A stretch of DNA of 34,941 nt from a virus, in IMG/VR virus record IMGVR_UViG_3300023301_000045, positions 1 through 34,941 of that record. One strand, 5' to 3'. The notes below the pieces were generated by a model, which saw nothing but the letters and a program-made list of their open reading frames with translations, ran no database searches and was not told the origin of the DNA. Of this stretch, positions 14,767 to 32,000 are shown in pieces. Position 1 is the stretch's first letter. Every line of letters starts with the position of its first letter. The translations under genes were made by a program, and so were the position numbers.

Positions 14767-14785
14767 GGGTGCAAATAATGCACCC
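14767..14785 (-). terminator. hairpin after the coat gene, likely partial terminator
   Basis: GGGTGC and GCACCC pair with a seven-base loop. Read leftward the stem is followed by TTTATG, a weak U tract. It lies in the 73-base gap between coat and the first paralogue and probably trims the coat message or attenuates transcription. Confidence 0.6.
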
Positions 14786-24877: not shown

Positions 24878-25276
24878 CTATATTGCTTCCTGGAGGCGCT
24901 CACGCAAACTTATAGTTTGTTTAACTTTGCGTTTAATCAACGTCGCCAATTCTTCGGTAGTTAATATTCTAGTCGCTAATTTGTTTTTACTTAAATCCGT
25001 GTTTTTTATCTCTTCAGCTAAATAAAATCCATTGCTGCTATAAATCATTGGGCCAAAAAATAAATAATCATAAGTAAGAATTGAATACTCTAAGTGCTTT
25101 AACAGCTTAACCCTTAAAAACTTTTTACATTTAACATCCAATACGGTGTCCACCTCTTCATTTCTTAAGCCTGCTAGCTTAGCAATTTGCTCAATAGCTT
25201 CAAGCTCATCCTTGCCAACTGACTTAGGACTTACATTGCTCCACAGTGGTTGCCATATTTTAACTTCTGCATTCAT
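24878..25276 (-). CDS. hypothetical protein, 132 aa
   Basis: The ATG at 25276 has AAGGAG with seven bases of spacing, so I prefer it to an upstream frame start at 25294. It overlaps the VRR-NUC gene by 17 bases. The sequence has charged helices (DELEAIEQIAKLAGLRNEEVDTVLD, ELATLIKRKVKQTISLRERL) around an aromatic middle (YSILTYDYLFFGPMIYSSNGFYL). No family is recognised. Coupling to a nuclease suggests DNA metabolism. Confidence 0.65.
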   Translation of the reverse strand: MNAEVKIWQPLWSNVSPKSVGKDELEAIEQIAKLAGLRNEEVDTVLDVKCKKFLRVKLLKHLEYSILTYDYLFFGPMIYSSNGFYLAEEIKNTDLSKNKLATRILTTEELATLIKRKVKQTISLRERLQEAI

Positions 25277-25655
25277 CCGTAATCTCCTTTGCATTTAAAT
25301 AATTAACGATAACATTCCTGGCTTCTTCAAAGCCATAACTAACAACTGCTAAATAACCTGCGTCACTTAGCTGTTGAATTCTTTGTTGTTGCTCTTTGCT
25401 AACAACTGGGTTGGGTTTGCCTTTGACCTTTGGTCTTTTAAGCTCAATAAAGAGCCCAGCAAGGCCGTTTGAGGGGAGTGTTAGCATTAAGTCAGGGATT
25501 CCAGCTTTAACACCCCCTAAACGTAAAGATTTTGCCTCTACAATGTTACGACTTCCTCCATTGGGGATGGCAAATAACAATAGCGTTGGATATTGCACCT
25601 CAAACCATCTGACTAACATCTCTTGCTCTGTCTTTTCTATTTGCATCCTGCGCAT
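25260..25655 (-). CDS. VRR-NUC domain nuclease, 131 aa
   Basis: This is a single-domain PD-(D/E)XK nuclease of the VRR-NUC family, which cuts branched or Holliday-like DNA and is common near phage replication genes. Visible motifs are an early Glu helix (EKTEQEMLVRWFEVQYP), the PNGGSRN loop, GVKAGIPDL with the first catalytic Asp, and FIELKRPKVKG carrying the E-x-K pair. These are followed by a long helix with Gln residues (KEQQQRIQQLSDAGYLAVV). The ATG at 25655 has AAGGA seven bases upstream. Downstream of the initiator in the same direction, it probably resolves replication or recombination intermediates. Confidence 0.85.
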   Translation of the reverse strand: MRRMQIEKTEQEMLVRWFEVQYPTLLLFAIPNGGSRNIVEAKSLRLGGVKAGIPDLMLTLPSNGLAGLFIELKRPKVKGKPNPVVSKEQQQRIQQLSDAGYLAVVSYGFEEARNVIVNYLNAKEITDECRS

Positions 25656-25715: not shown

Positions 25716-26663
25716 TTAACCTTTTCTTAATCCGCTCATCATTTCTTGGATTTTTAATTGTGCTGTTGTCAGTGAAGATCTATCACCACCAAATACAATA
25801 TGTGTGACCTTGCTTGTGCGAATATCTTGAAGCTCTCTGTCTTTCTCTAGCTTGGCAGCTTGCTCTCTAGCTTCTGCTTGGCGCTCTATCTCTTCTCTTA
25901 AGCCTTTCGGTCTGCTCCATTGGCCGTTTTGAATCATTCTCAATGCTGCATTAACTGCACCCACTTCAGACAATCCATTTCGACGATTGTTAGCGTGATA
26001 ATCCAAGTCAGCTAGTAAATCTAACATATCTCTATAATAACAATCCCCTTTTATTAGCTTTTCAGTTTTCAAATAAGTTAGGGCGCTTGTTAATTGAGAC
26101 AATCTGTTTTCAAAATTATTTATTTTATAAAAAACAACGCTTCCGTCTTTACCTCTGCCAAGGCCTTTAGGTAGTGAAACGCTATCTCCGTTATTAACGT
26201 TGTTTCTTGTTAATATACTATCTCCGTTATGTAGTGCAGATTTTGCACTTATACCCGGGGTTACAGGTGCAGATTTTGCACTTATATCACAATCTAAAGG
26301 TGCAGATTTTGCACTACCGGAAGAAAGAGGTGCAGATTTTGCACCTGCTTCTTCACCTGTGACATCGTGACCATAGGTTCTTATTGAGTCTTGTAACTTT
26401 TGCTTATTAATGCCGTAGATGTGTCTGTTGTTTTTGTAATTTCGCTTTACAAAAATAAAATCATTATCTTTTAAGCTTTTGCGCACATCCTTAATTGTTC
26501 GCTCACTCAACCCAGACCACGCTACAAAAGTTTCAATATCAACAAATGCTTCTTCATTGTCTTTTGTAAGAGCAATCATCACTCTAAGCATCCATTTTTC
26601 TGTCACGGTTATGCCGCTCATAAAATCGATGTTAGGCAAATACTCTTTTAACTTCTTTAACAT
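25716..26663 (-). CDS. replication initiator, lambda O-like organisation, 315 aa
   Basis: This is a probable origin-binding protein. Residues 18-90 form a winged helix (TEKWMLRVMIALTKDNEEAF, WSGLSERTIKDVRKSLKDND, NNRHIYGI), as in phage replication proteins of the O/DnaD type. Residues 108-144 are a linker with four copies of AKSAP/AKSAL spaced 10-11 residues apart. These are encoded by the DNA iterons. The C-terminal third (NRLSQLTSALTYLKTEKLI, GAVNAALRMIQNGQWSRPKGL) resembles the segment by which such proteins recruit a helicase or its loader. The ATG follows AGGAGTTTAAT. No phage helicase gene is present, so it presumably recruits the host DnaB. Family assignment is by architecture rather than by a named signature. 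Confidence 0.75.
   Translation of the reverse strand: MLKKLKEYLPNIDFMSGITVTEKWMLRVMIALTKDNEEAFVDIETFVAWSGLSERTIKDVRKSLKDNDFIFVKRNYKNNRHIYGINKQKLQDSIRTYGHDVTGEEAGAKSAPLSSGSAKSAPLDCDISAKSAPVTPGISAKSALHNGDSILTRNNVNNGDSVSLPKGLGRGKDGSVVFYKINNFENRLSQLTSALTYLKTEKLIKGDCYYRDMLDLLADLDYHANNRRNGLSEVGAVNAALRMIQNGQWSRPKGLREEIERQAEAREQAAKLEKDRELQDIRTSKVTHIVFGGDRSSLTTAQLKIQEMMSGLRKG
26234..26344. repeat. four iterons, probable replication origin inside the initiator gene
   Basis: GTGCAGATTTTGCAC occurs four times without change, at 26234-26248, 26267-26281, 26300-26314 and 26330-26344. Periods are 33, 33 and 30 bases, about three helical turns. Each unit carries an inverted repeat GTGCA/TGCAC. They lie between the DNA-binding and C-terminal domains of the initiator, just as lambda ori lies in gene O. 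An AT-rich stretch lies on the low-coordinate side (26110-26135, and 26205-26220). Confidence 0.8.
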
Positions 26664-28738: not shown

Positions 28739-28934
28739 AGAAGAATACACCGTGGAATATCTTATAAAGCTATTAAATTGCTGTGCAAGCCAAGCAGTTA
28801 TCAATATAATAACAATAGTAGATGGGGTTGAAACGGCTTTACCAATAACATCACTACTTATACATCAAACAAAAGATAAGAAAGAATTAATTAGTTTTTT
28901 ACACAACACAAAGGATTTAACAAATGATTTATAA
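28710..28934 (+). CDS. small protein, 74 aa
   Basis: AAGGAGCAGGGA directly precedes the ATG at 28710, which decides the start although the frame is open further up. The product (MKEAKIVNIKEEYTVEYLIK, then LLNCCASQAVINIITIVDGV) is soluble with mixed strands and helices. It overlaps the ERF gene by 11 bases and is probably co-translated with it. Possibly a partner of the annealing protein; no family recognised. Confidence 0.65.
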   Translation: MKEAKIVNIKEEYTVEYLIKLLNCCASQAVINIITIVDGVETALPITSLLIHQTKDKKELISFLHNTKDLTNDL

Positions 28935-29607
28935 AACAGACAGTATAGATAAGGTCGCACAAGCACTTAGTGGCCTGCAAGGTGAAATGGACACCGTTCA
29001 CAAAGGCGCAGACGGATATAATCATAAATATGCCAGTTTAGCTGATGTATTTGAAACCATAAGACCATTGTTGAAAAAATATGAGCTGTCAGTTGTTCAA
29101 CCAGTGAGCGGCTCTAATCAAACTATAGAACTTACTACTATGTTAATGCATAGTAGTGGGCAGTATATTTCATCAACTGTCAGCGTGCCAGTCGACTTTA
29201 GTAATAAAAAGATGAATAGCCTACAGGCTGCTGGCAGCACTATCACTTATTTAAGACGTTATTGCTTATGCTCAATGCTTGGGATTGCATCAGCGGATGA
29301 TGACGGCAAAGCTGGCGGCGAAAGCATTGATGAATTAAGAGACAAAGAGCCTAAACCATCATCTCAATTCAAAGCTGTCCCCGCAAAAGTAAATTATAGT
29401 GTATCGCAAGAGCAGTTAGAGTATTTACGTAAACAACTGTTTGATAGAATAATTGATGAGAATATCCCGGCAACAACTGTTGATACCTGGTGTGCTAGAG
29501 CCAATGTGAAAAGCGTTAGTGAATTAAATGGCGAGCAAGTGCAGCAAATCTTGAAGTTTATTAACGGTAAAGTTTTTACTGAAAAAGCAGTTGAAGTAGA
29601 AAGCTGA
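28924..29607 (+). CDS. erf: ERF-family single-strand annealing recombinase
   Basis: This is an ERF superfamily protein, 227 aa, which anneals complementary single strands and helps circularise or recombine phage DNA (named after P22 Erf). The family core is clear: KYASLADVFETIRPLLKKY near residue 38, then QAAGSTITYLRRYCLCSML around residue 98, followed by GIASADDDGK. The C-terminal 70 residues (SVSQEQLEYLRKQLFDRII, ATTVDTWCARANVKSVSEL) look like a small helical domain. Overlap with the 74-aa gene couples them. Together with SSB and VRR-NUC it makes up the recombination set. Confidence 0.9.
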   Translation: MIYKTDSIDKVAQALSGLQGEMDTVHKGADGYNHKYASLADVFETIRPLLKKYELSVVQPVSGSNQTIELTTMLMHSSGQYISSTVSVPVDFSNKKMNSLQAAGSTITYLRRYCLCSMLGIASADDDGKAGGESIDELRDKEPKPSSQFKAVPAKVNYSVSQEQLEYLRKQLFDRIIDENIPATTVDTWCARANVKSVSELNGEQVQQILKFINGKVFTEKAVEVES

Positions 29608-31541: not shown

Positions 31542-32000
31542 ATGTCAAAAGGCGTAAATAAAGTAATTTTAATTGGTAATTTAGGCGCTGATCCAGAAGG
31601 ATTTGGCACTGCAGTTAAACTTAAACTTGCCACTTCTGAATCCTGGAAAGACAAAGACGGTAATATGGCTGAGCGCACCGAATGGCATCAGGTGACATTG
31701 TTTAGTCGTTTAGGTGAGATAGCCAAGCAATACTTAGCCAAAGGCTCCAAAGTTTATATTGAAGGCTCAATTAGAACTTCTAAATATACTGATAAAAACG
31801 GCGTAGATAAATATAATACTGAAATTATTGCTAGTAACTTACAAATGTTAGACAGCAAAAATACTGCCAGCTCGAGTCCACAACAAGGGCACGAACCACA
31901 AGCTAAAAGCAATTATGATTATATGGCCGTCAAGCATCAACAAGCCAATGGCCAGCAGGCTACTAGCATTGATGATAGCTTAGATGATCTGCCATTTTAG
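31542..32000 (+). CDS. ssb: single-stranded DNA-binding protein
   Basis: This is a bacterial-type SSB, 152 aa. The OB fold is evident: [19 protein letters not shown], then [50 protein letters not shown] and [12 protein letters not shown] Gln/Ser-rich linker leads to the acidic tip DDSLDDLPF, which in SSBs recruits partner proteins. The length is typical. It protects replication intermediates made from the iteron origin and probably works with the ERF protein. It stands alone, rightward, between leftward genes; TATAAA at 31512-31517 may be its -10. Confidence 0.95.

Follow-up and report, generated by a model that had tools for sequence, protein, structure and literature searches.

The window analysed here is a 34,941-base virus record, taken over its full length, and within it one 15-base sequence is repeated four times inside an open frame that resembles a phage replication initiator. 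The locus raises the question of whether such repeats are kept for the DNA, as initiator-binding iterons of an origin, or for the peptide that they encode. We examined the gene, the array, its occurrence in other genes and the protein residues that vary together with it.

The putative initiator gene and its neighbours

The gene in question (P0001; positions 25716–26663, minus strand) encodes a protein of 315 amino acids. Its N-terminal half matched PHROG replication-initiation and O-like families with E-values of 4.6e-5 to 1.3e-3; the value of 4.6e-5 belongs to PHROG 270, which together with PHROG 391 and 678 represents the HTH_36-type initiator group. Pfam HTH_36 itself scored 20.9 bits, under the 25-bit cut-off, and Pfam RepA_N (PF06970) was absent from the protein in the Pfam search. 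An AlphaFold2 model of the N-terminal region, obtained with a 31-sequence alignment, showed a winged-helix topology with a mean pLDDT of 85.7, and the domain was assigned to residues 15–103 (26355–26621, minus strand). The fold matches of the model were weak (E about 3e-3 to 9e-3) and included 4pql and 4pt7, which are N-terminal, DNA-binding domains from plasmid initiators of the RepA_N family; a sequence profile picked up DnaD. The recognition helix with its N-cap, placed by the model and by alignment with 170 relatives, covers residues 53–66 (SERTIKDVRKSLKD; 26466–26507, minus strand), helix 40–52 of the model being residues 54–66 of the protein. No family was matched by the C-terminal region (residues 160–315; 25719–26186, minus strand) in Pfam and PHROG searches, and its single-sequence structure model was unusable (pLDDT 39). 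A sequence search of viral contigs and phage records found no close relatives of the protein.

The next gene downstream encodes a VRR-NUC nuclease (25260–25655, minus strand; Pfam PF08774, 4.7e-8). The replication/recombination region of the window is marked by a gene for an Erf-type single-strand annealing protein (28924–29607, plus strand; Pfam ERF 6.3e-26, PHROG 5.6e-39), and a single-strand binding protein is encoded at 31542–32000 (plus strand; Pfam SSB 2e-29, PHROG 1.7e-44). The structural genes are P22-like by their PHROG matches (portal, head-protein). Among the neighbour genes tested with Pfam and PHROG, no helicase and no helicase loader, of P or DnaC type, was recognised.

Four identical repeats in the linker of the protein

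Four exact copies of GTGCAGATTTTGCAC are present on the plus strand, which in coding order are iteron 1 at 26330–26344, iteron 2 at 26300–26314, iteron 3 at 26267–26281 and iteron 4 at 26234–26248, with spacings of 33, 33 and 30 bases. The array proper thus extends from 26234 to 26344, whereas the original prediction had let the feature start at 26205. Read on the coding strand, each copy becomes GTGCAAAATCTGCAC, that is GTGCA-N5-TGCAC, with 5-bp arms GTGCA and TGCAC and five bases between them, so that its half-sites are 10 bp apart; the identical copies, their periods and the internal inverted repeat had all been predicted correctly. Identity among the copies is limited to the 15-mer, and the remainder of each 30–33-base unit differs. 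The array corresponds to residues 107–144, after the winged helix and before the C-terminal part, which agrees with the predicted position in the linker between the two domains. The repeats had been said to encode AKSAP; this holds for three copies, while one encodes AKSAL.

The window contains five GTGCA-N5-TGCAC sites, four of them in the array; dinucleotide-shuffled windows had 0.09 sites on average and at most one (100 shuffles). When synonymous codons of the initiator gene were shuffled with the protein unchanged, perfect sites averaged 0.21 and never exceeded two in 2000 trials, as compared with the four observed. Nucleotide shuffling and synonymous-codon shuffling together thus exclude chance as the source of the window array. 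An Rfam search of the window gave no match. We also followed the cumulative GC skew, for which a minimum at the array had been suggested as a check. The minimum was not there: the curve has a local low point near 27.5 kb, at a change of gene direction, and the lowest value is reached at the window end. A lone perfect GTGCA-N5-TGCAC unit, GTGCAAATAATGCAC, was noticed at 14769–14783, in the gap between two structural genes.

Recurrence of the unit in other winged-helix genes

Five other viral contigs also contain the exact 15-mer, as two copies near each other and always in the linker of a winged-helix protein. In these contigs the same bases encode AKSAP, CKICT or VQNLH according to the frame, and the frames sometimes alternate within one gene. 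A wider scan of viral contigs and genomes was performed for two GTGCA-N5-TGCAC units, and its figures are given among the matches listed. The raw hit counts of the palindrome scans were uninformative for comparing the GTGCA test with a GTCGA control, so the open reading frames were sorted by family instead. Among the matches listed for viral contigs, up to 82 of 117 open reading frames with a GTGCA-N5-TGCAC pair belonged to PHROG replication-initiation families and 72 of the 117 matched HTH_36; with the control palindrome GTCGA/TCGAC, which has an equal composition, the numbers among the matches listed were 5/103 and 6/103, respectively. Even this control still contained initiators, with winged-helix open reading frames at 7 of 120 loci (among the matches listed). 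Changing the spacer to GTGCA-N4-TGCAC left only 64 stretches in a complete scan, and winged-helix genes made up 16 of 61 loci, many of them near-identical copies, versus 90 of 118 for N5 (among the matches listed).

In those 90 winged-helix genes, the GTGCA sites were distributed over frames 0, 1 and 2 as 73, 184 and 26, and 42 of the 90 genes had mixed frames (both among the matches listed). Because the unit occurs in all three frames, often mixed within a gene, selection acts on the DNA. The genome contigs with an array in a winged-helix gene were labelled Pseudomonadota, Bacillota, Bacteroidota, Synergistota, Chloroflexota, Actinomycetota, Acidobacteriota and Myxococcota, which makes about eight bacterial phyla, several contigs being metagenome bins whose single labels may be wrong.

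We also assembled a subfamily blind to the iterons, choosing its members only on the N-terminal part of the protein. Of its 77 distinct genes, 52 had two or more perfect GTGCA units, and several of the remaining genes, when checked singly, had degenerate but phased arrays. Such an array has five units spaced 24/21/21/24 in phage mEp460 and seven units in Pseudomonas phage phi2. The search for the same iteron-in-gene layout, which the original prediction had proposed for relatives, found it in many divergent winged-helix phage initiators.

A separate kind of repeat was encountered in Thiobacillus and Gallionella-type genomes, where pairs like GTGCATTCCATGCAC and GTGCATGGAATGCAC, about 31 bases apart, occur in several places each (L131, L136, L139, L141, L153, L160, L164, L168, L175, L184, L185, L188 and others). 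These pairs look like a repeat element of those genomes, unrelated to the iterons.

Covariation of the recognition helix with the half-site

A second scan, with GTGAC-N5-GTCAC, yielded 53 further winged-helix genes. Positions in the recognition helix were counted from the helix-capping Ser, so that in the window helix SERTIKD, Arg55 is position +2 and Asp59 position +6. Arg was found at +6 in 52 of the 53 GTGAC genes, the remaining one having Lys, and in 0 of 111 GTGCA genes, where Asn, Tyr, Asp, Ser, Lys, Thr and other residues were found instead. Position +6 carried 0.90 bits of information on the iteron class, and the other positions were at about chance level. Arg at +2 was common to both classes (103/111 GTGCA genes and 51/53 GTGAC genes), while all seven winged-helix genes of the GTCGA control had Asp there. 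The window initiator fits the pattern of its class, with Arg at +2, a residue other than Arg at +6 and four GTGCA units in the linker.

The association between +6 and the iteron class persisted after clustering at 40% identity (p about 3e-19). Nine of these clusters hold both classes, and the +6 residue is switched to match every time; in the closest natural pair, of 78% identity, SKRSVMNHI goes with GTGCA and SKRSVMRHI with GTGAC. A tree calculated without the recognition helix gave four well-supported independent pairs, which all agree and are too few for significance. Such a tree yields few pairs because about 80 columns resolve little, and for this reason we turned to clusters by identity. 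An alignment of the whole family proved too divergent for scanning.

The rule was also examined in 12 independent genes that had been found by protein similarity alone and that have a significant array. All 12 follow it: the eight without Arg at +6 have GTGCA, and the four with Arg have GTGAC. This check drew on named phages and other genomes; a thirteenth gene (L582) was left out, as it comes from a pattern-selected genome. Within the protein-similarity set, a GTGCA or GTGAC array was present in none of the 46 proteins without Arg at +2. The rule works one way, from array to residue, and many winged-helix proteins with Arg at +2 show no detectable array. The covariation of +6 with the half-site is strong evidence that the initiator binds the iterons carried by its gene, in the manner of lambda O and the plasmid RepA_N proteins.

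Some further helices were noted during this work. The proteins of Pectobacterium phage ZF40 (L443) and Klebsiella phage ST13-OXA48phi12.5 (L445) are close relatives of the GTGCA subfamily; they have SKSAV helices, with Ser at +2, and lack GTGCA-type arrays. The N4-spacer control contained near-identical winged-helix genes with VSADTVKRAI helices, that is, Asp at +2 and Arg at +6 (L670, L677, L679, L682, L690, L693, L705 and L730). In viral contigs L319, L332 and L357, RepA_N-like genes have GTCGA-N5-TCGAC repeats together with Asp at +2. Genes that combine GTCGA with Asp at +2 possibly mean that initiators of the plasmid type follow a code of this sort as well.

Spacing of the units and the adjoining DNA

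Spacings between successive units cluster at 21–24, 33–36 and 42–45 bp (n = 356). Their vector strength was 0.58 at about 11 bp versus 0.18 at 3 bp, whereas the spacings of GTCGA control sites were nearly always multiples of three. The phasing at about 11 bp means that the units share one face of the helix.

In 161 genes, the A+T content was raised downstream of the arrays, with gains of 10 points in the first 20-bp bin and 13 points in the second; upstream of the same arrays, the rise was only about 2 points. The step in the window is modest beside that of the group, the 30-bp bins downstream of the array having 50–80% A+T (0.80 in the richest). A candidate unwinding region lies at 26104–26233 (minus strand), containing 13-bp direct repeats and an A+T-rich stretch at about 26104–26138. 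The direct repeat, CTATCTCCGTTAT, occurs at 26182–26194 and 26218–26230, with a spacing of 36, just past the iterons in the coding direction, and is possibly part of the unwinding element. Among 101 genes located downstream, we counted 21 matches to DnaC-like loaders, 19 to DnaB-like helicases and 4 to P-like loaders.

Comparison with known systems

Iterons inside an initiator gene are a known layout, seen in lambda, P22, phage L, Stx phages and pSK41; for lambda, such an in-gene iteron origin is described in PMC7466680. Lambda O with ori-lambda, P22 gp18, phage L gp18 and Stx-phage O all resemble the window in having at least four iterons midway along the initiator gene and a DNA-binding domain at the N-terminus, and the lambda-O group also shares with the GTGCA/GTGAC group a downstream tract rich in A+T. 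In lambda, iteron 1 (TCCCTC-AAAAC-GAGGGA) is built of two arms around five bases in the same way as GTGCA-N5-TGCAC; the lambda iterons are spaced 20/24/23 bases, and A+T reaches 78% in the next 41 bases on the same side. The sequence of the lambda arms is, however, unlike that of the window, lambda O gave no score with the profile of the GTGCA/GTGAC group, and the window protein matched no lambda-O family in Pfam; its matches to the O-like families of PHROG are weak. The original prediction had already noted that iteron sequence and protein look different from those of lambda. According to the authors of the phage L study, O-like proteins that are only distantly related seem each to have iterons of their own, to which they bind within their coding regions (PMC8022706).

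In RepA_N plasmid initiators (pSK41, pTZ2162) and the RepA of PLE satellites, a winged-helix N-terminal domain acts on semi-palindromic iterons, and the pSK41 origin is contained in rep, where it occupies a linker that is dispensable (PMC5703833, PMC7145576). The RepA_N initiators are similar to the window protein in fold (4pql/4pt7) and belong to a different Pfam family; the genes of the GTCGA control, several of which are RepA_N-like, differ from the GTGCA/GTGAC group in having Asp instead of Arg at +2. PLE iterons lie in noncoding DNA, unlike the in-gene array of the window, and in these satellites RepA and the origin covary as modules (PMC8263062). The pPR9 Rep joins a phage-like HTH_36 N-terminal domain to the C-terminal domain of pSK41, and its rep region supports replication (PMC5703833), so this class of domain can work with an origin in the rep region.

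The layout and the rule of the window recur in named phages, with GTGCA-type arrays in Enterobacteria phage mEp460 and Pseudomonas phage phi2 and GTGAC-type arrays in Psychrobacter phage vB_PmaS_Y8A and Vibrio phages 1.213.O and D75; their proteins are divergent from that of the window, some of the arrays are degenerate, and the phage records annotate the gene only. Our search, which covered mainly open-access papers, found nothing relevant on the 15-mer or its peptides, and neither a half-site GTGCA/GTGAC shared across phyla nor a one-residue predictor; a prior description in the subscription literature is conceivable.

A proposed in-gene origin and its alternatives

We consider it very probable that the four repeats are initiator-binding iterons of a phage origin located inside the gene of the initiator itself, the binding being deduced from the covariation. 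The lambda-O-style origin of the original prediction, in which the DNA of the linker doubles as iterons, is supported by the reading frames, the phasing, the covariation and the geometry of lambda iteron 1. Two winged-helix domains, probably as a dimer, would occupy each GTGCA-N5-TGCAC, one on each half-site, one DNA turn apart and on the same face. Arg55 at +2 most likely touches the GTG part, and the +6 residue, here Asp59, would set the inner bases, a residue other than Arg giving GTGCA and Arg giving GTGAC. The four roughly helix-phased units may then build a nucleoprotein complex, which would put the neighbouring A+T-rich DNA, further downstream in the gene, under strain until it opens, and the C-terminal domain would recruit the replicative helicase. 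Since the array is situated in the linker, the AKSAP peptide would be tolerated, not selected. For the unwinding and helicase steps, the window initiator is presumed to act by analogy with lambda and plasmids, where they have precedents (PMC7466680, PMC5703833). Of these steps, helicase recruitment has the weakest support, since the genes tested around the window gene included no recognised loader.

Repeats bound by the initiator might instead mainly repress its gene or titrate the protein (autoregulation, copy control), with the true origin elsewhere. Many winged-helix proteins do autoregulate, and the further isolated unit at 14769–14783 is intergenic. On the other hand, the array is situated well inside the coding region, a long way from the gene start, phased multi-copy arrays with an adjoining A+T step have the anatomy of an origin, and the comparable arrays of lambda and pSK41 do serve as origins (PMC7466680, PMC5703833); we therefore regard this explanation as unlikely.

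Three other readings are much harder to reconcile with the data. If an AKSAP peptide linker were selected and the DNA identity came from recent duplication, one would understand why the window copies are all in one frame and give nearly the same peptide. Synonymous shuffling, though, does not yield four sites, only the 15-mer and not the rest of each 30–33-base unit is identical, and relatives carry the same DNA in all frames, which already contradicts this very improbable reading. The units could also be RNA hairpins with a 5-bp stem and a 5-nt loop, such as pause or attenuation sites, and terminator-like patterns did score at three iteron positions; but the stems are weak, and both the helical phasing and the covariation with the recognition helix would be left without a reason, so that this already disfavoured idea is barely credible. 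There is likewise very little chance that the sites serve some other DNA-binding protein of phage or host and are in the gene by coincidence, because a residue of the protein from the same gene predicts the half-site in many separate clusters and out of sample.

Beyond the initiator-bound origin proposed for the window, the results are on balance in favour of a compact origin-recognition code in the winged-helix initiators of phages, and of some plasmids, from many bacterial phyla. In such a code, the initiator would read a phased array in its own gene, with +2 (Arg or Asp) setting the outer GTG or GTC and +6 (Arg or not) the inner part, GTGAC or GTGCA; origin and initiator would have switched jointly, by one residue together with changes in the array, many times. 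The one-residue predictor bears on how the specificity of O-like initiators is encoded and how it changes; near-identical natural pairs across the switch make specificity directly testable. The array/residue rule would also provide a means of locating origins in the thousands of phages and prophages that lack annotation, and it would explain why AKSAP, CKICT and VQNLH repeats recur in phage proteins listed as 'hypothetical', where they would be by-products of the DNA sites.

We also noticed that the C-terminal domain of GTGCA-type initiators is swappable with that of P22/HK-type gp18/O proteins, which have another N-terminal domain; this swap was seen in residues 185–294 of the L036 protein, as compared with L451 and L452.
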